34,246 nt of DNA from positions 14,742-48,987 of the forward strand of contig JAJZTK010000011.1 of NCBI GenBank assembly GCA_021849045.1, read 5' to 3'. The DNA is from Deltaproteobacteria bacterium. GTDB taxonomy: Bacteria; Desulfobacterota; Desulfuromonadia; Geobacterales; DSM-12255. Under the pieces are notes generated by a model, which ran no database searches, was not told where the DNA came from, and saw only the letters and a program-made list of their open reading frames with translations. Positions 6,075 through 34,246 of the stretch are shown piece after piece. Positions within the stretch are counted from its first letter, which is position 1. Each line of letters starts with the position of its first letter. The translations under genes were made by a program, and so were the position numbers.

Positions 6075-7061
6075 ATGAAAGCGGCATTGCTAGACGGTTT
6101 TGGTGGCCTGGAGGTGCTGAAGGTCGGTGAGGTGGCAAGGCCGATCCCCGGCGAAGGGCAGGTGCTGATTAAGGTCCACGCCACATCCATCAACCGTCCC
6201 GATCTGGTTCAACGGGAAGGGAAATATCCCCCCCCGCCGGGCGATTCGGACATTCTCGGTCTGGAAGTGGCCGGGACCGTCGAAGAGCTCGGAGCCGGGG
6301 TAACCGGCTGGCAGAAGGGGGCTCGGGTGATGAGCCTGGTTGGTGGTGGCGGCTATGCCGAGTACGCCGTGGCCTACGCCAGTCACCTGATGCCCATCCC
6401 GGACAGTATGAGCTATGAGGAGGCGGCCTGCGTCTGCGAATCCTACATTACCGCTTTCTCGAACATCTTCATGATCGGTGGCCTCAAAGACAACAACAGC
6501 GTCATCATCCATGGCGGCGGCGGCGGCGTGAGCAATGCCGGCATCCAACTCTGCAAGGCCCTGGTTCCCAATACGCGGATCATCGTCACTGCCCACCCGA
6601 GCAAGATCGAACGGGTAAAAGGGCTCGGGGCAGGGCTGGTGATCGACTTCACCCAGACGCCCGACTTTTCCGAGGCGGTCAAGGAGTTCACCAACAAGAA
6701 GGGGGTGGACGTGATCCTCGACCACGTGGGGGCCAAGTACCTGGCGCCCAACATGAACTCCCTGGGCTATGCCGGGCGCCTCGTCATCATCGGCGTCATC
6801 AGTGGCATCAAGGCCGAACTGAACCTGGCCCTGATGATGGTCAAGCGCCAGCAGATCATCGGCTCCGTGCTCCGTTCCCGGCCGGTCAAGGACAAGGGGG
6901 CGATCGTGGCCGAGTTCACGAAGACGGCCCTTCCCAAGTTCGCCGACCGGACCATCGTGCCGATTATTGAAAAGGTCTTCCCCCTCGACCAGGTGGCGGA
7001 TGCCCACCGGATGATGGAAGAGGATAAGCATTTCGGCAAGATCGTCCTGAAGGTTGCATAG
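6075..7061 (+). CDS. NAD(P)H quinone oxidoreductase, PIG3/QOR-like MDR family
   Basis: Zinc-free medium-chain dehydrogenase/reductase of 328 residues, closest in motif pattern to the PIG3 (TP53I3) type of NADPH quinone oxidoreductases. The segment SINRPDLVQREGKYPPPPG is nearly diagnostic. A Rossmann nucleotide-binding stretch follows (HGGGGGVSNAGIQL, residues 146-159), then GVDVILDHVGAKY. The usual zinc-ligand residues of alcohol dehydrogenases are absent. The start is ATG 6075, with AGGAGG at 6062-6067 seven bases upstream; the 20 extra codons from 6015 are unlikely. It probably reduces quinones or electrophilic enones in the cytosol. A strong hairpin terminator lies 39 bases after the stop. 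Confidence 0.88.
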   Translation: MKAALLDGFGGLEVLKVGEVARPIPGEGQVLIKVHATSINRPDLVQREGKYPPPPGDSDILGLEVAGTVEELGAGVTGWQKGARVMSLVGGGGYAEYAVAYASHLMPIPDSMSYEEAACVCESYITAFSNIFMIGGLKDNNSVIIHGGGGGVSNAGIQLCKALVPNTRIIVTAHPSKIERVKGLGAGLVIDFTQTPDFSEAVKEFTNKKGVDVILDHVGAKYLAPNMNSLGYAGRLVIIGVISGIKAELNLALMMVKRQQIIGSVLRSRPVKDKGAIVAEFTKTALPKFADRTIVPIIEKVFPLDQVADAHRMMEEDKHFGKIVLKVA

Positions 7062-7099
7062 CTGCGACTGTCACGGCGACCAGTGTCATAAGGAAAATC

Positions 7100-7126
7100 A
7101 AAAAAGCCTGCACCGCAGGCTTTTTT
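7100..7126. terminator. Bidirectional rho-independent terminator
   Basis: A perfect 12-bp stem (AAAAAAGCCTGC / GCAGGCTTTTTT) with a three-base loop, A-run on one side and T-run on the other. It serves the plus-strand oxidoreductase gene and the convergent small cysteine-rich gene. Confidence 0.92.
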
Positions 7127-7152
7127 GTGGAACCAATTACGGGTAAGGTTTG

Positions 7153-7323
7153 TCAGTCGCCAAGCCAGCCAGCTTCGGGGATCTGCACCGGATCGCACAG
7201 GCTGCCGGGTTCGTGTGCCTTGGCGCCGCACCGGCGACACATGGCGGTCGGGTTGGCTGAAAACGCCCTGATCTCGTTGACGTCATTCAGTTCGCAGATT
7301 CTGGCTCCTTCGCTACTTTTCAT
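7153..7323 (-). CDS. Small cysteine-rich hypothetical protein (56 aa, CxxC)
   Basis: A short gene with strong translation signals. The minus strand reads AAGGAGGTG seven bases before ATG 7323, and TGA is at 7153-7155. The 56-residue product begins MKSSEGARICELNDVNEIRA, has C10, and then M28-C29-R-R-C32-G-A-K-A-H36 and C43. The CxxC with a following His and Cys could bind one metal, most simply Zn or Fe (inference). No signal peptide or membrane segment is seen, so it is probably cytosolic. It has its own candidate promoter at 7371-7399 and the shared terminator at 7100-7126, so it is probably a monocistronic unit. From memory, short proteins with a similar CRRCGAKAHEP-like stretch occur in Geobacter relatives. 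Function unknown. Confidence 0.8.
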   Translation of the reverse strand: MKSSEGARICELNDVNEIRAFSANPTAMCRRCGAKAHEPGSLCDPVQIPEAGWLGD

Positions 7324-20250: not shown

Positions 20251-20536
20251 GTTTAAGCAGGTGACAGGTACGTAACGTTCTCTGAGTAATCCCAAAGGTC
20301 ATCTTGCAGTATCTCTCCAGATGGGTCGGTATCCTCTATCTACTGATACGATGCAGCCAATCCCCACAGCATTGATTGCCCTTGACAGCCGGATTACAAG
20401 CTATTCATCTTTCGGTTCGTAGTGCGGAGGTTGGGGCTAGAATCGCGGAGAGCTTTTGATCGGCAAGAGGAAGGTTTGAGTTACTTATATGGGTAACCAT
20501 GCAAGTTTCTTTTATAGGAAAACTGCTTAATAACGG
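20251..20536. other. Non-coding left flank of the AT-richer insert
   Basis: About 290 bases between the membrane protein stop and the first cassette-like core site. Composition shifts from GC-rich to AT-richer across it. I see only short frames (the best about 33 codons), no tRNA-like structure, no integrase remnant and no convincing terminator or attI-like repeats. It may be scar sequence from insertion. Confidence 0.4.
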
Positions 20537-20563
20537 GTTAAACGACGAAAGAAAAAGAGCAAG

Positions 20564-21442
20564 ATGAACAAGCCCCAGAAAAAGGGAAAAATCAGGAAGC
20601 CGGTTCGGAAGCTTTCAGAACTCGAATTATCGTTTCTGGAAGAGGTGGATTTGTATGACAAGGTTATCGAGACAACCAAACTTATTTCTTGGAACCAGCA
20701 CGGCATAATGACCGACGGCAGAGGGATAAGGGGCATGAGGATTTTTACCCGTCAGACAGTAACGGGGTTATCCCTCCAAAGGATACTGCCACGGCCATCA
20801 AAGTTCACAGAGCCAGATACTGAACTTTGGGACATATGTTCAATAGCATCCCTCTCAAGAAACCTAATGGAAGGTTATTTGTGCTTATCCTACTTCGGAC
20901 TTGAAAAAGTAGCCGAGGAGGAAGCGGAGTTGCGCTTCTTTATTGCCCAACTTCATAAAAATGTTGAATGGTATGAGATCAGGAAGCTATCTGATTCGAC
21001 AGATCCAGGACTGAAAGAATTTGAAGACGGGATCAAAAGCGAAAAAGAGCGAATAAGAAACCACCCATATCTAGCCTCGCTCACAGAAGCCCAAAGAAAT
21101 AGAGCCCTCCGCGGCATTGAGATGTACAAAACGAAGACGGATTTTGAAGCCGAGCAGGCAGTCTGCAAGGATCTAAGGCGAAACTACAGACATTTATCCA
21201 ACCTTGTTCATCCTCTGCCACTATCAATTGAAAGGATAGACAGTGAGCGAGGACGGGGTATCGGTACCGACCCAGATGTAAACTACTGCCTCATTTGCCT
21301 AATGTTGGCACGGAGATATTTAGCCGCCTCAACAATTGGTATTGCCGATCTGTTTCCAGAAGCACTGGCTTCGAAATTTGAGACGAGACTCCGAAAAATT
21401 CGGCCACTCGTTATGGCCGGGTTTGAAGGTGGCGATGTTTAA
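20564..21442 (+). CDS. Hypothetical protein, helical, DUF5677-like pattern
   Basis: A 292-residue protein with no signal peptide or membrane segment. Residues ~110-120 read SLSRNLMEGYLCLSYF and residues ~205-216 NYRHLSNLVHPL; together these resemble the helical core of DUF5677-type proteins, which I offer only as a tentative link. The N-terminus is basic (MNKPQKKGKIRKPVRK). It is clearly AT-richer than the genes on either side. ATG 20564 has only a purine-rich leader (AAAGAAAAAGAGC). Its TAA stop lies inside GTTTAAC, the first core of the attC-like element, an overlap typical of gene cassettes. Function unknown. Confidence 0.7.
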   Translation: MNKPQKKGKIRKPVRKLSELELSFLEEVDLYDKVIETTKLISWNQHGIMTDGRGIRGMRIFTRQTVTGLSLQRILPRPSKFTEPDTELWDICSIASLSRNLMEGYLCLSYFGLEKVAEEEAELRFFIAQLHKNVEWYEIRKLSDSTDPGLKEFEDGIKSEKERIRNHPYLASLTEAQRNRALRGIEMYKTKTDFEAEQAVCKDLRRNYRHLSNLVHPLPLSIERIDSERGRGIGTDPDVNYCLICLMLARRYLAASTIGIADLFPEALASKFETRLRKIRPLVMAGFEGGDV

Positions 21443-21500
21443 CCAGCGGCGGCATACGGTCTTCGCTTCGCTTCGCCGCTGCGCCACGCCACCGTTGTGA
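21437..21500 (+). repeat. attC-like recombination element A
   Basis: It starts with GTTTAAC (RYYYAAC consensus) and ends with GTTGTGA (imperfect GTTRRRY), 64 bases overall. CAGCGGCG (21444-21451) pairs with CGCCGCTG (21474-21481). An alternative fold pairs GGCG-CA-CGG with CCG-TG-CGCC and leaves unpaired bases, as attC sites do. It aligns with the element at 33786-33848 over most of its length (shared TAACC, GCGGCGGCA, ACGG, CTTCGCT). Confidence 0.6.
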
Positions 21501-21573
21501 AGGATAAAAAATGCCATGGGAGCTGATTTAGAGTACACGACCAGAAGCAGCGATATTAAGTAAGAGACCCAAT

Positions 21574-21618
21574 CAATATCACCTTTTCTTGACAACTTGT
21601 CACGAAAAGGTGATATTG
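21574..21618 (+). promoter_or_regulatory. 45-bp palindromic operator containing the toxin-antitoxin promoter
   Basis: Outer arms of 15 bases (21574-21588 and 21604-21618; CAATATCACC...GGTGATATTG) are perfect reverse complements. Inner arms TGACAA and TTGTCA flank a central C, with one mismatched pair between inner and outer arms. The promoter TTGACA (21589-21594), 17 bases, GATATT (21612-21617) lies fully inside. The Phd-like antitoxin starts 26 bases downstream. This fits autorepression by the antitoxin or the toxin-antitoxin complex. Confidence 0.75.
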
Positions 21619-21643
21619 AAGAAAAACAGCGAGGTTATTCAGT

Positions 21644-21883
21644 ATGCAAACCATGACAGTCGGTGAGGTCAAAGCTCATTTTTCAGAAGTCCTCGACATG
21701 GTGCAAAGTGGCGAGGATGTAGTGATCAGTTTCGGCAAGAAAAAGGAGAAGATCGCTGTGCTGGTCTCTTTTTCGCACTATCAGGGCAAACAGGAACGCA
21801 AGCTGGGGCTTCTGGCAGGGAAGGCGACCTTTTCGCTTCGGGAAGATTTTGCCATATCCGATGAAGAATTGTTGAAGTCATGA
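21644..21883 (+). CDS. Phd/YefM-family antitoxin
   Basis: A 79-residue antitoxin. The N-terminal MQTMTVGEVKAHFSEVLDMV and GEDVVISFGKKKEKIAVLVS are the DNA-binding Phd/YefM fold; the C-terminal part (DFAISDEELLKS) would be the disordered toxin-neutralising tail. ATG 21644 has GCGAGG about ten bases upstream; the in-frame ATG four codons in is possible. Its TGA overlaps the toxin ATG (ATGA), the standard coupling in such operons. It probably represses its own promoter through the palindrome at 21574-21618. Confidence 0.9.
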   Translation: MQTMTVGEVKAHFSEVLDMVQSGEDVVISFGKKKEKIAVLVSFSHYQGKQERKLGLLAGKATFSLREDFAISDEELLKS

Positions 21884-22278
21884 ATTTTCTTCTCGATACC
21901 CATACGCTGCTCTGGGCACTGTTCGAGCCGACTCGACTGGGCAGGAAAGGGGCGGAGATTCTTGGTAATGCCGACGAAACCATATTTGTCAGCGTGGTCT
22001 CCTTCTGGGAACTGTCGTTGAAGTATGCTATCGGCAAGCTTGAACTCGGCAATGTCACCCCGGACGAATTCCCCAGCCTTGTCCGGCAGGCAGGTTTTGA
22101 GGTCTTGCCGCTTGCCGAAGCTGATGCTGCAACCTTTCACAATTTGCCGCGACTGGAACACAAGGACCCTTTTGATCGTCTGCTGATCTGGCAGGCAATT
22201 TCCGGAAAACTGACTTTCATCTCACAGGACAAAGCGTGTGCAGCGTATAAAAAGCAGGGGCTGAAGGTGATATGGTAA
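21880..22278 (+). CDS. VapC-like PIN-domain toxin
   Basis: A 132-residue PIN-domain ribonuclease, the toxin partner of the upstream antitoxin. The acidic active-site residues are visible: D6 in LLDTHTLLW, E44 in SFWELSLK, D96 and D99 in HKDPFDRLLIWQA, and D117 near the C-terminus (ISQDKA). It would cut RNA, often tRNA or rRNA, when not bound by antitoxin. Pairing of a Phd-type antitoxin with a PIN toxin is common. It ends 28 bases before the second attC-like element. Confidence 0.92.
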   Translation: MNFLLDTHTLLWALFEPTRLGRKGAEILGNADETIFVSVVSFWELSLKYAIGKLELGNVTPDEFPSLVRQAGFEVLPLAEADAATFHNLPRLEHKDPFDRLLIWQAISGKLTFISQDKACAAYKKQGLKVIW

Positions 22279-22306
22279 AATATGTATCACCAGTTTGAAA
22301 GAAAAG

Positions 22307-22353
22307 GCCCAACAACACGACGGCACTCGGTCTCCGCTCTCGTCAGGTTGATG
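22307..22353 (+). repeat. attC-like element C (divergent)
   Basis: GCCCAAC (perfect RYYYAAC) at the left and GTTGATG at the right. CGGCAxxCGGTCTxCGCT matches the centre of element A at 15 of 18 positions. GACG and CGTC can pair inside the cores. It is 47 bases long, short for attC, and could be degenerate. It lies 28 bases after the toxin gene. Confidence 0.4.
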
Positions 22354-22369
22354 TGTCTTCCTGAGCGCG

Positions 22370-22537
22370 ATGCTGTGGGGAGTAATAGGCGGTGTGGTGG
22401 GATTTGTAGGCGGATTTTGGGGTCCAATTGCTTTTTCGAGATCTCCACAAGGTCCTTTGCTGAGCATTGTCACCGGACCTCTCGGAGTAGTTATAGGCTG
22501 CATATATGGAGCAGTGAGAGCATTTCGACAACAATAA
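22370..22537 (+). CDS. Small glycine-rich membrane protein (55 aa)
   Basis: ATG 22370 to TAA 22535-22537 encodes 55 residues with two hydrophobic, glycine-rich stretches (LWGVIGGVVGFVGGFWGPI and LLSIVTGPLGVVIGCIYGAV) and a basic tail (RAFRQQ). It would span the membrane as a hairpin. There is only a weak GAG upstream, and an in-frame TGA seven codons before the ATG limits the start. It follows the second attC-like element, so it could be a last cassette gene or a remnant. No family recognised. Confidence 0.5.
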   Translation: MLWGVIGGVVGFVGGFWGPIAFSRSPQGPLLSIVTGPLGVVIGCIYGAVRAFRQQ

Positions 22538-31419: not shown

Positions 31420-31746
31420 TCAGGAAGCTTTTGAAAGAATGTCCGCAGCCCACTGGTTGAGGCTCATTCCGTGAGCTTCAGCCATCATGGCGGCACGGGC
31501 ATGGACTTCAGGCGGGACTCGCAGCATAAGTTTGCCCGAATAAGGCTTTTGCGGGGTGCGGCCAACCTTTTCACATGTGGCAAGATAGTCATCAACTGCC
31601 TCCTCGAATGCCGCGCGCAAATCCTTGACGGACTCGGCGTGGAAGCCGATGACATCTTTTATTCCTGCGATGTGGCCAATAAAACAACCATCTTCATCGC
31701 TGTACTCAATCCGAGCGGCGTACCCTTTGTAATTCATTGTGCTCAT
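31420..31746 (-). CDS. hicB: HicB-family antitoxin
   Basis: A 108-residue antitoxin. The N-terminal part (YKGYAARIEYSDEDGCFIGHIAGI) is the partial RNase H-like HicB fold; the C-terminus (KLMLRVPPEVHARAAMMAEAHGMSLNQWAADIL) is a ribbon-helix-helix DNA-binding domain. The start overlaps the hicA stop as ATGA, showing coupling. It neutralises HicA and probably represses the operon. An in-frame ATG three codons later is also possible. Confidence 0.92.
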   Translation of the reverse strand: MSTMNYKGYAARIEYSDEDGCFIGHIAGIKDVIGFHAESVKDLRAAFEEAVDDYLATCEKVGRTPQKPYSGKLMLRVPPEVHARAAMMAEAHGMSLNQWAADILSKAS

Positions 31747-31997
31747 GGTTTCACTCCTGCATTCTCCAAAAAGGTTCGTGCATCGCGAACCTGGTATGGC
31801 TTCGCTTCTTTTGCCGGATGGGGCCGGTGAAACGTGGCGATAATGCCATTCAACACGAAGCGAACCCGTGATCCGTTCCCCTCGATGGTTTGCGCCCCAA
31901 GCGCATCGAATAACGACTCGATCTTACGCCATTCCAGCGACGCGGGAACCGGTTGTGAGAAGATGGCTTCGAGGGTGTTGCGGTGGGATTTGTTCAT
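31743..31997 (-). CDS. hicA: HicA-family mRNA interferase toxin
   Basis: An 84-residue toxin with a double-stranded RNA-binding-like fold. EWRKIESLFDALGAQTIEGNGSRVRFVLNG followed by ATFHRPHP carries the conserved Gly-Ser and the catalytic-type His. It is the first gene of the hicAB operon, with hicB overlapping its stop by four bases. No Shine-Dalgarno is seen before ATG 31997 (CACCCC precedes it), so translation may be weak, which suits a toxin. It is divergent from the HTH gene. Confidence 0.88.
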   Translation of the reverse strand: MNKSHRNTLEAIFSQPVPASLEWRKIESLFDALGAQTIEGNGSRVRFVLNGIIATFHRPHPAKEAKPYQVRDARTFLENAGVKP

Positions 31998-32607: not shown

Positions 32608-33765
32608 TTATAAATTTTTAAAATATTCAGAATGCTTACCTATGTGGTTGTTTATTGTCGCCAAATCATTGTGGTCTATCATTCCGCCTTTATAAGCAAT
32701 GAATTCCGGTAGAGTCATCGTAAATCCGCGTTGGAGATACTTATAAAGAATTATTACAACACCATCCTTGATTGGCTCAATATCTGCGGCATCCAGGTTT
32801 TCTAAAGAGGCGCATTTCACGATCCAATTCATCTTGCTGCCTAAATTAAGATTGACAGCGACACCCTCCTTGCTTGGCAATATTAAAAGTGTTACTGCGT
32901 ATTGATGCCCAGTTACGTCTTTAAAAAGCTGATCGAAATGACCTGCCAAGTCAGTAGTTCCCTGAATGTCTGGAAGTTGTTCACCTTCCCGATGCCACAG
33001 TGCTTTTTGCAATTCGGCTGTGTAGTCGGTACTCAGAATTTTCTCTCCGAATAAAGAATACCCCACACCTAGTGCTAACTTCGCCATAAAGCGGACGTCG
33101 TAGCGAGTATAGATAGCAAGACTATTTTTCCTTGTTTGCTCACCTGAACAGGCGGTTCGGAAAAACTCAATACGAGCTGCATCAAGACGATCAGGGGGCG
33201 CAAAGCCAATGTCAGCTGGGTCCGCGCCATCAACGATTGTGCACATAATCTTTCTTACACGCCTTCCCTCAAAGGCATCTCTGAATGTTAGCCACGACAG
33301 AAGAGCATTCTTTGTTGACCTCTCCGAAAACTGAAAGTACGCACGAGTTTCAACTTTTTTTGTCGTACGTGGGTTGCCGCCGACGTACCAGTAAAGCCGA
33401 GCGTCCTTAGGCCTGATCCAGTAAACTTGTTCACCTAGCGGCCCCAGCCAGCTTTCACACACATCATCCTCTTGTAACTCAGGTGGCATGAGGTCCGAGC
33501 TACCCATGGGAGTCAGTGGCAATCCAACGGGCTTCGCTGGATCAAATAGAGCATATGCAGCCTCACGGAAAAACTGGGACACAAACCAGTTCTTTTCAAA
33601 AGAAGCATCCACAAAAAGTCCAAGGTTGTTGTTGCATTGCCCACAGACGTCTCTTGTTTTGAATTTGTCAGGAGCATAGGCACCACCTAGGCACTGCGGA
33701 ATAACATGCTCAAGCGTGAAATCCTCGACCGGTTTTGGCCGTTTGCAGTAGATGCACTCTTTCAT
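32608..33765 (-). CDS. HNH-endonuclease-like protein
   Basis: A 385-residue protein from ATG 33765 (AAGGAAGA just upstream); a GTG at 33783 is the alternative. The N-terminus has the zinc and HNH pattern CIYCKRPKPVEDFTLEHVIPQ...CLGG...CGQCNNNLG, with two CxxC pairs, the catalytic-type His in LEHV and the Asn cluster. The remaining ~320 residues have no motif I recognise. HNH proteins of this layout act in restriction, phage defence or mobile elements, so a defence role is possible but not shown. The gene is AT-richer than the chromosomal genes and starts 20 bases after the attC-like element. Confidence 0.75.
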   Translation of the reverse strand: MKECIYCKRPKPVEDFTLEHVIPQCLGGAYAPDKFKTRDVCGQCNNNLGLFVDASFEKNWFVSQFFREAAYALFDPAKPVGLPLTPMGSSDLMPPELQEDDVCESWLGPLGEQVYWIRPKDARLYWYVGGNPRTTKKVETRAYFQFSERSTKNALLSWLTFRDAFEGRRVRKIMCTIVDGADPADIGFAPPDRLDAARIEFFRTACSGEQTRKNSLAIYTRYDVRFMAKLALGVGYSLFGEKILSTDYTAELQKALWHREGEQLPDIQGTTDLAGHFDQLFKDVTGHQYAVTLLILPSKEGVAVNLNLGSKMNWIVKCASLENLDAADIEPIKDGVVIILYKYLQRGFTMTLPEFIAYKGGMIDHNDLATINNHIGKHSEYFKNL

Positions 33766-33785: not shown

Positions 33786-33848
33786 GTTCAACGTCACAAG
33801 GCGCACCGGCAGAGCGTAGCGAAGTCCGTGTGCCGCCGCAGGTTATGC
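33786..33848 (-). repeat. attC-like recombination element B
   Basis: On the minus strand it reads from GCATAAC (33842-33848) to GTTGAAC (33786-33792, perfect GTTRRRY). GGCG-g-CAC-a-CGG pairs with CCG-GTG-CGCC, leaving two unpaired bases on one arm, the hallmark of attC hairpins. It follows the stop of the gene at 33853 by four bases and aligns closely with element A. Confidence 0.6.
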
Positions 33849-33852
33849 GTGC

Positions 33853-34110
33853 TTATCCGCGAGCATTTTTTATCTGTTCCATATCTAAGATGTTTTTGCC
33901 ATGCCTACTTTTCACGAAAGGAATCTTGTCATGATCGACTCCGAACCATTCATAAACTCTGCTGACTAAAATAAACGCAGCTCTTTCTGGCTCTCCCAAT
34001 TCTTCCCCAATCGTTACATTAAATATTTCCCCTGAGCTTGGAGCTGTCTTGATTCTGTGAGGCATTCGCTGTGTAGCTAAAATTTTACAAGGGTTTCCAG
34101 AGCGAGTCAT
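33853..34110 (-). CDS. Small hypothetical protein, cassette-like
   Basis: Read from ATG 34110 (AGGAAA nine bases upstream) it has 85 residues; GTG 34134 with GGAAGA before it is an alternative. The frame stays open to 34236, but those codons run through the terminal repeat and look untranslated. The sequence (IFNVTIGEELGEPERAAF, YEWFGVDHDKIPFVKSRHG) is soluble, mixed alpha/beta-like and matches no family I know. It lies directly before an attC-like element in the same orientation, as a cassette gene would. Confidence 0.5.
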   Translation of the reverse strand: MTRSGNPCKILATQRMPHRIKTAPSSGEIFNVTIGEELGEPERAAFILVSRVYEWFGVDHDKIPFVKSRHGKNILDMEQIKNARG

Positions 34111-34160
34111 GTTATCTAGTTTCCTGATTAGCACTAATCTTCCGCCCGCTTGAAAAAAAT

Positions 34161-34246
34161 CCCCTCCCCCCTGGCGGGGGAGGGTGATGGTGGGGGGGAA
34201 GTTGCCACGAAGTCCGCTGGTTGCAGCTTCACCCACCCCCCCGCCC
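34161..34246. repeat. GC-rich palindromic repeat at the window end
   Basis: CCCTCCCCC (34162-34170) pairs with GGGGGAGGG (34176-34184); a GGTGGGGGGG tract follows and CACCCACCCCCCC closes the window. It belongs to the same general CCCCTCC-type dispersed repeats as the element at 11381-11468, probably continues outside, and may be why the sequence stops here. Confidence 0.65.

Follow-up and report, generated by a model that had tools for sequence, protein, structure and literature searches.

Near one end of a 34,246-nt stretch of a Geobacterales contig (Deltaproteobacteria bacterium, JAJZTK010000011.1), here called the window, lies a palindromic element at 33786–33848 on the minus strand. We read this element as the attC site of a chromosomal integron cassette, in a small array without its own integrase, that is, of the type known as CALIN (cluster of attC sites lacking an integrase), and put the probability of this reading at about 0.92. 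Comparison with related genomes suggests further that small arrays devoid of the integron integrase (IntI) are scattered round the chromosome, and that about half of them lie behind a conserved attI-like landing site. Sites, arrays and the IntI genes of relatives are read directly from the sequences, and from these we infer recombination.

The focus site lies at exactly the position given by an earlier reading of the letters alone (the sequence-only reading), which had called it attC-like. Its parts are as follows.

33786–33848, minus strand: attC site (focus)
33842–33848, minus strand: R'' box, GCATAAC
33826–33837, minus strand: L'' arm
33833, minus strand: extrahelical G (C on the bottom strand), an unpaired column in the alignment of homologues
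33829, minus strand: extrahelical A (T on the bottom, recombining strand), an unpaired alignment column between paired columns
33800–33809, minus strand: L' arm
33786–33792, minus strand: R' box, GTTGAAC, with the crossover between G (33792) and TT

On the minus strand the site reads GCATAAC CTGC GGCG[G]CAC[A]CGG ... CCGGTGCGCC TTGTGAC GTTGAAC. The R' box fits the consensus GTTRRRY with a G/TT crossover, and the L stem of 10 bp leaves two bases extrahelical on one arm, the same single G and single A (as read on the top strand of the site) that the sequence-only reading had seen unpaired. Folding of both strands, the check proposed there, gave the attC stem with both bulges as the minimum-energy fold of the bottom strand and not of the top strand. 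The site was also said to be nearly identical to an element some 12 kb away, as it is: 33786–33848 (minus) matches 21440–21485 (plus) over 46 nt at 85%, and the blocks TAACC, GCGGCGGCA, ACGG and CTTCGCT follow in the same order in both copies. That first copy (21437–21500) has an R'' box, GTTTAAC, that agrees exactly with RYYYAAC, as does the consensus of the family. Both copies are oriented alike relative to the gene upstream; four bases separate the stop codon (33853–33855) from R'' of the focus site, and in the first copy the stop codon lies inside R''.

Starting from a profile of these two sequences, matches were found in many genomes of the same order, from which 46 full-length sites were aligned, AAC and GTT but not their neighbouring bases being used to pick the ends. 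All 46 have at their start a pyrimidine-rich box that closes with AAC, and at their other end GTT, after which two purines usually follow; in 45 of 47 sites the base directly after GTT is a G or an A (the GTT itself having served in the choice of ends). The structure tested, with the R boxes paired and an L stem with two single-base bulges, pairs 92% of cells in the 46 homologues. Compensatory changes on both sides occur in seven of 14 pairs (33 cells), none of 500 shuffles did as well, and slid versions of the structure score far lower. Sequence conservation drops to background directly outside R'' and R'. Of 97 relatives from the same order, 87 have matches to a covariance model built from the aligned sites (R1). 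The focus site scores 80.7 bits, a value that is not independent as both window sites were in the training set; its homologues were also recovered independently of R1, by blastn and nhmmer. In the genome itself, R1 gives matches outside the training set, of 58 bits on contig C57 and of 50.5 bits on contig C229, and further copies include one on contig C190 and a weak one at contig position 686–745, outside the window. The sequence-only reading was right in every detail of the element, but the two window copies are neither the only copies nor solitary, both standing in short cassette arrays. At the C229 site (6569–7191 of locus L114) a YefM/YoeB pair comes directly after the attC; that stretch adjoins a trpB-like gene and differs from the sister genome. 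Rfam gave no match to the window, no plasmid match to the attC was found, and a scan of viral contigs with the attC core gave one match of 11.9 bits, which is at chance level.

The placement of the sites ties them to genes and to integrases. A stop codon of a same-strand open reading frame (ORF) lies within 150 nt of R'', often inside it, in 45 of 54 sites, compared with 10% of random positions. Among the 150 best-scoring sites, 14 of 15 neighbouring pairs less than 4 kb apart are on one strand with cassette-like spacing. Fourteen of these 150 sites are within 20 kb of an IntI gene, where about one is expected by chance, and every one of the 14 has the canonical divergent orientation. In one relative, nine sites on a single strand lie within 10 kb, adjoining IntI; loci L078 and L081 are among the arrays next to intI. 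In 43 of the 97 relatives, among them the one other genome that belongs to the same genus, IntI scores above the curated cut-off. As a side observation, most IntI of this order (loci L045–L056) are open frames of 415–488 aa, whereas the model of the integron integrase has about 315 positions.

These facts bear on what else the hairpins might be. The sequence-only reading had offered cassette insertion or a mobile palindrome family, and would have inclined to the latter had the copies lain mostly away from gene ends or in random orientation. A family of repetitive extragenic palindromes or their mosaics (REP/BIME), or of miniature inverted-repeat transposable elements (MITEs), spread by a transposase and unrelated to integrons, would account for dispersed palindromic copies in many genomes and for a genome without IntI. 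It does not account for a fixed orientation after stop codons, same-strand arrays, canonical placement beside IntI, or covariation that preserves the extrahelical bases; neither terminal repeats nor a target duplication was seen, and conservation ends at GTTR. We have rejected it, as very improbable, on the gene-dependent orientation, the canonical association with IntI in relatives and the conservation bounded by R'' and R'; of the two offers, cassette insertion holds. Transcription terminators of the upstream genes would also stand directly after stop codons, but the hairpins have no T run, the invariant GTT and the extrahelical bases are not terminator features, and homologues stand in arrays beside IntI, so that we give this idea next to no credence. 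The attC reading is what boxes, covariation and the IntI association of relatives together support.

Several observations weigh against it. One base in the R'' box of the focus site (GCATAAC) does not fit RYYYAAC, and GTTGTGA, the R' box of the first copy, departs from GTTRRRY. The L stem alone folds no more stably than shuffled DNA (z of 0.2 and -0.3); energy alone is within the chance range, and the support for the hairpin is comparative. Because the focus cassette has its left end within a repeat or beyond the contig, the array structure there is incomplete. Finally, nothing in this genome (a draft, 99.7% complete) scores above the TIGR02249 cut-off. Two partial IntI matches are of the kind that recombinases in control genomes also give, and a complete integron, which takes an intI in the genome or at the locus, was thus not found.

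What lies ahead of the cassettes provides the less expected part of the analysis. The first array of the window is preceded by the following element.

20519–20543, plus strand: attI-like core, CTGCTTAATAACGG followed by GTTAAAC, with the crossover between G20537 and T20538; the same core occurs in complete integrons

TATAT/GTAAC repeats lie upstream of it, at about 20478–20520. The core stands ahead of orf292 as AAACTGCTTAATAACGG followed by GTTAAAC, and in the sister genome ahead of a cassette as AAACTGCTCAATAACGG followed by GTTAGAC. About eight complete integrons have CTAACYGSTCAATAACGA followed by GTTR in the space from IntI to the first cassette, some of them with 4–5 mismatches. The core is joined to different cassettes at G/TT beside intI, as an attI should be, at L048, L049, L051–L053, L056, L082 and L083; in the window the core stands without intI. 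In the 3 kb upstream of 48 attC loci without IntI, the core (AACYGSTCAATAACGA followed by GTTR) was found with at most four errors on the same strand in 25 of 48 and on the opposite strand in three of 47; with at most three errors the counts are 19 and zero. Downstream controls, again with at most four errors, gave five of 51 on each strand. The pattern was first spotted at the window and one sister locus, and both are among the 25. When aligned at the crossover, the cores are conserved for about 17 bp up to the G and fall off after GTTR, as would be expected if different cassettes had been joined there. Three kinds of element occur upstream of the core: TATATAGGTAAC repeats, CATCTAATATTAGATGC repeats and a GGTTCACGCGCG hairpin, the hairpin form having no viral or plasmid match. 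The complete integron of the sister genome has an attI that shares 97.7% identity over 87 bp with the attI-like site of a locus without IntI in that genome.

How the cassettes came to these places can be outlined from what is known of integrons. In single-stranded cassette DNA the bottom strand would fold into the hairpin, IntI would bind the R and L boxes with the two extrahelical bases setting the choice of strand, and would cut between G and TT of R', so that the cassette enters or leaves an attI, an attC or a secondary site. The cassettes of the window would thus have been placed by IntI, and at least the array at 20.5–22.5 kb would have been founded at a conserved attI-like site. Since no IntI was detected in the genome, the arrays should now be stranded, and immobile unless IntI arrives in trans.

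Where that IntI acted from is less clear, and three accounts deserve attention. In genomes of this order, scattered attI-like platforms of about 60–100 bp without intI, each with one to three cassettes, could be served in trans by one IntI, the whole forming a distributed integron; we hold this only tentatively, and the single IntI may be elsewhere in the genome or may have been acquired from outside. Decay of complete integrons that lost intI is possible too, though we would not bet on it: IntI remnants persist upstream in two of 22 cases without IntI, in one case over 49 aa with 80% identity, but the other 20 have no trace of IntI in the 1.6–4 kb examined upstream, the distance from core to rsmB in the window is only about 270 bp, and the whole interval in the sister is just 30 bp. 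The cores may serve as landing platforms in trans, may be what is left of lost integrons, or may be both. Insertion of single cassettes at random secondary (attG) sites by a distant IntI would need no platform. This is an established route (Loot et al. 2024, as cited in PMC12901181), and 123 of the best 150 sites are without a listed neighbour within 4 kb. It appears rather unlikely, however, because half of the loci without IntI have a right-strand attI-like core conserved to the crossover, whereas attG sites are described as strongly divergent.

As an attC, the focus site is a new member of a well-known kind, and arrays without IntI are already known as CALINs. The boxes, the extrahelical bases and the bottom-strand crossover between G and TT are general features of attC (PMC12901181), and a taxon-specific attC covariance model for Deltaproteobacteria has been published (Ghaly et al. 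2021, PMC8352920). Sedentary chromosomal integrons have attC sites with the same R''/L''/L'/R' layout, two extrahelical bases and a variable terminal loop, and have short cassette ORFs and toxin–antitoxin cargo in common with the present arrays, which differ in being isolated, short and without IntI; this comparison is of layout and cargo. CALINs include clusters lacking an integrase, and single attC sites are also recognized (IntegronFinder 2.0, PMC9024848). They share with the present loci attC sites and cassettes without nearby intI at several loci per genome, but about half of the present loci start with a conserved attI-like core. In Xanthomonas, CALINs occupy fixed loci away from intI, and a functional IntI can mobilise CALINs in trans (PMC12444791). 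The secondary attG sites (Loot et al. 2024, Nat Microbiol 9:228, as cited in PMC12901181 and PMC12444791) are described as differing strongly from classical att sites in sequence and structure; they share with the present sites a placement outside the main array and a G/TT crossover, whereas the present core keeps its sequence over about 17 bp and occurs beside IntI as well. The attI of class 1 integrons has the same pair of boxes with R = GTTRRRY, upstream repeats and the first cassette joined at G/TT; here the core is CTAACYGSTCAATAACGAGTTR, three kinds of repeat or hairpin lie upstream, and many copies are without intI. On orphan, duplicated, multiple or attI-like sites, the literature searched (outside which fall most subscription journals) yielded only off-target integron activity on a plasmid, and it held no description of CALIN loci that start with a conserved attI-like core. 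It is the placement that would matter. CALINs and single attC sites are frequent; why cassettes sit at given loci far from an integrase is an unsettled question, to which the core at about half of the loci offers a directly testable answer: the loci may be landing platforms used in trans. If true, such platforms would show how toxin–antitoxin and other accessory genes spread to many chromosomal positions.

The array of which the attI-like core is part has these features.

20252–22535, plus strand: segment with the attI-like site, cassettes 1 and 2 and an attC remnant, absent from sister genome G001
20564–21442, plus strand: orf292, the gene of cassette 1, with a weak DUF5677 match below the cut-off; its stop codon is inside R''
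21437–21500, plus strand: attC of cassette 1, R'' GTTTAAC and R' GTTGTGA, 66.3 bits (R1, training-set site)
21644–22278, plus strand: Phd/YefM antitoxin and PIN toxin, cassette 2 (Pfam PhdYeFM_antitox 1.7e-7, PIN 5.5e-11)
22307–22338, plus strand: truncated third attC, R'' and L'' arm only (nhmmer 0.0038; 15.5 bits)

The attC at 21437 and the truncated one at 22307 lie 0.8 kb apart on one strand, which makes the array a CALIN. On either side of the segment, contig C4 of the sister genome runs colinear at about 93%, and there the rsmB-type gene is separated from the FKBP gene by about 30 bp; as this spacer differs on both sides, the insertion junction is not readable. A second insertion, in the sister's contig C4 (locus L112) and missing from contig C222 of the present genome, has its borders outside attI and attC, and therefore gives no clean junction either. 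The cassette proteins of the window were not found in the other arrays examined, save for a distant PIN homologue. Just upstream of the Phd/PIN pair, 21573–21619 is a 23-bp near-perfect palindrome (96%, 1-nt spacer), probably the autoregulatory operator of the pair.

The focus site, the single attC on its part of the contig, has these neighbours.

33853–34110, minus strand: small ORF of 85 aa without a Pfam match, stop codon 4 nt before R''
32608–33765, minus strand: HNH_5 protein of 385 aa (Pfam HNH_5, 3.5e-15), starting about 25 nt after R'
34121–34246, no strand assigned: repeat at the contig end, bounded by terminal inverted repeats; contig C259 ends in a copy with 100% identity over 124 nt

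The small ORF is presumed to be the cassette ORF, and is possibly truncated by the repeat, which bounds the array upstream and breaks the assembly. After the stop codon of the HNH gene no attC was found, and the gene is either the next cassette without a recognisable attC or a resident gene. The array belongs to a stretch after uvrD that is variable: between uvrD and plsY the sister genome carries different genes, along with another attC-like site. Sister homology stops at 31531, within hicB of a HicB/HicA pair (31420–31997), so the variable stretch begins within a toxin–antitoxin gene. In the present genome the plsY side is on contig C259, whose end has a hairpin-form attI-like site, on the strand matching the focus attC, and then an AlbA_2 gene broken by the repeat. 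As the contigs are not joined, a single array comprising this attI-like site and the focus attC would follow from synteny only. The repeat itself is about 180 bp long with terminal inverted repeats CCTGATTAGYRCYAATCTTCCGC, and its copy on contig C259 (locus L123), which interrupts the AlbA_2 cassette gene, is flanked by an apparent 8-bp duplication, TAATATTA; it looks like a MITE. The last bases of that contig, AGATCGGA, resemble an Illumina adapter remnant. For the HNH protein the genome collection yielded a single relative, from Caballeronia concitans; it has 59% identity along the full length, which suggests transfer between distant bacteria.
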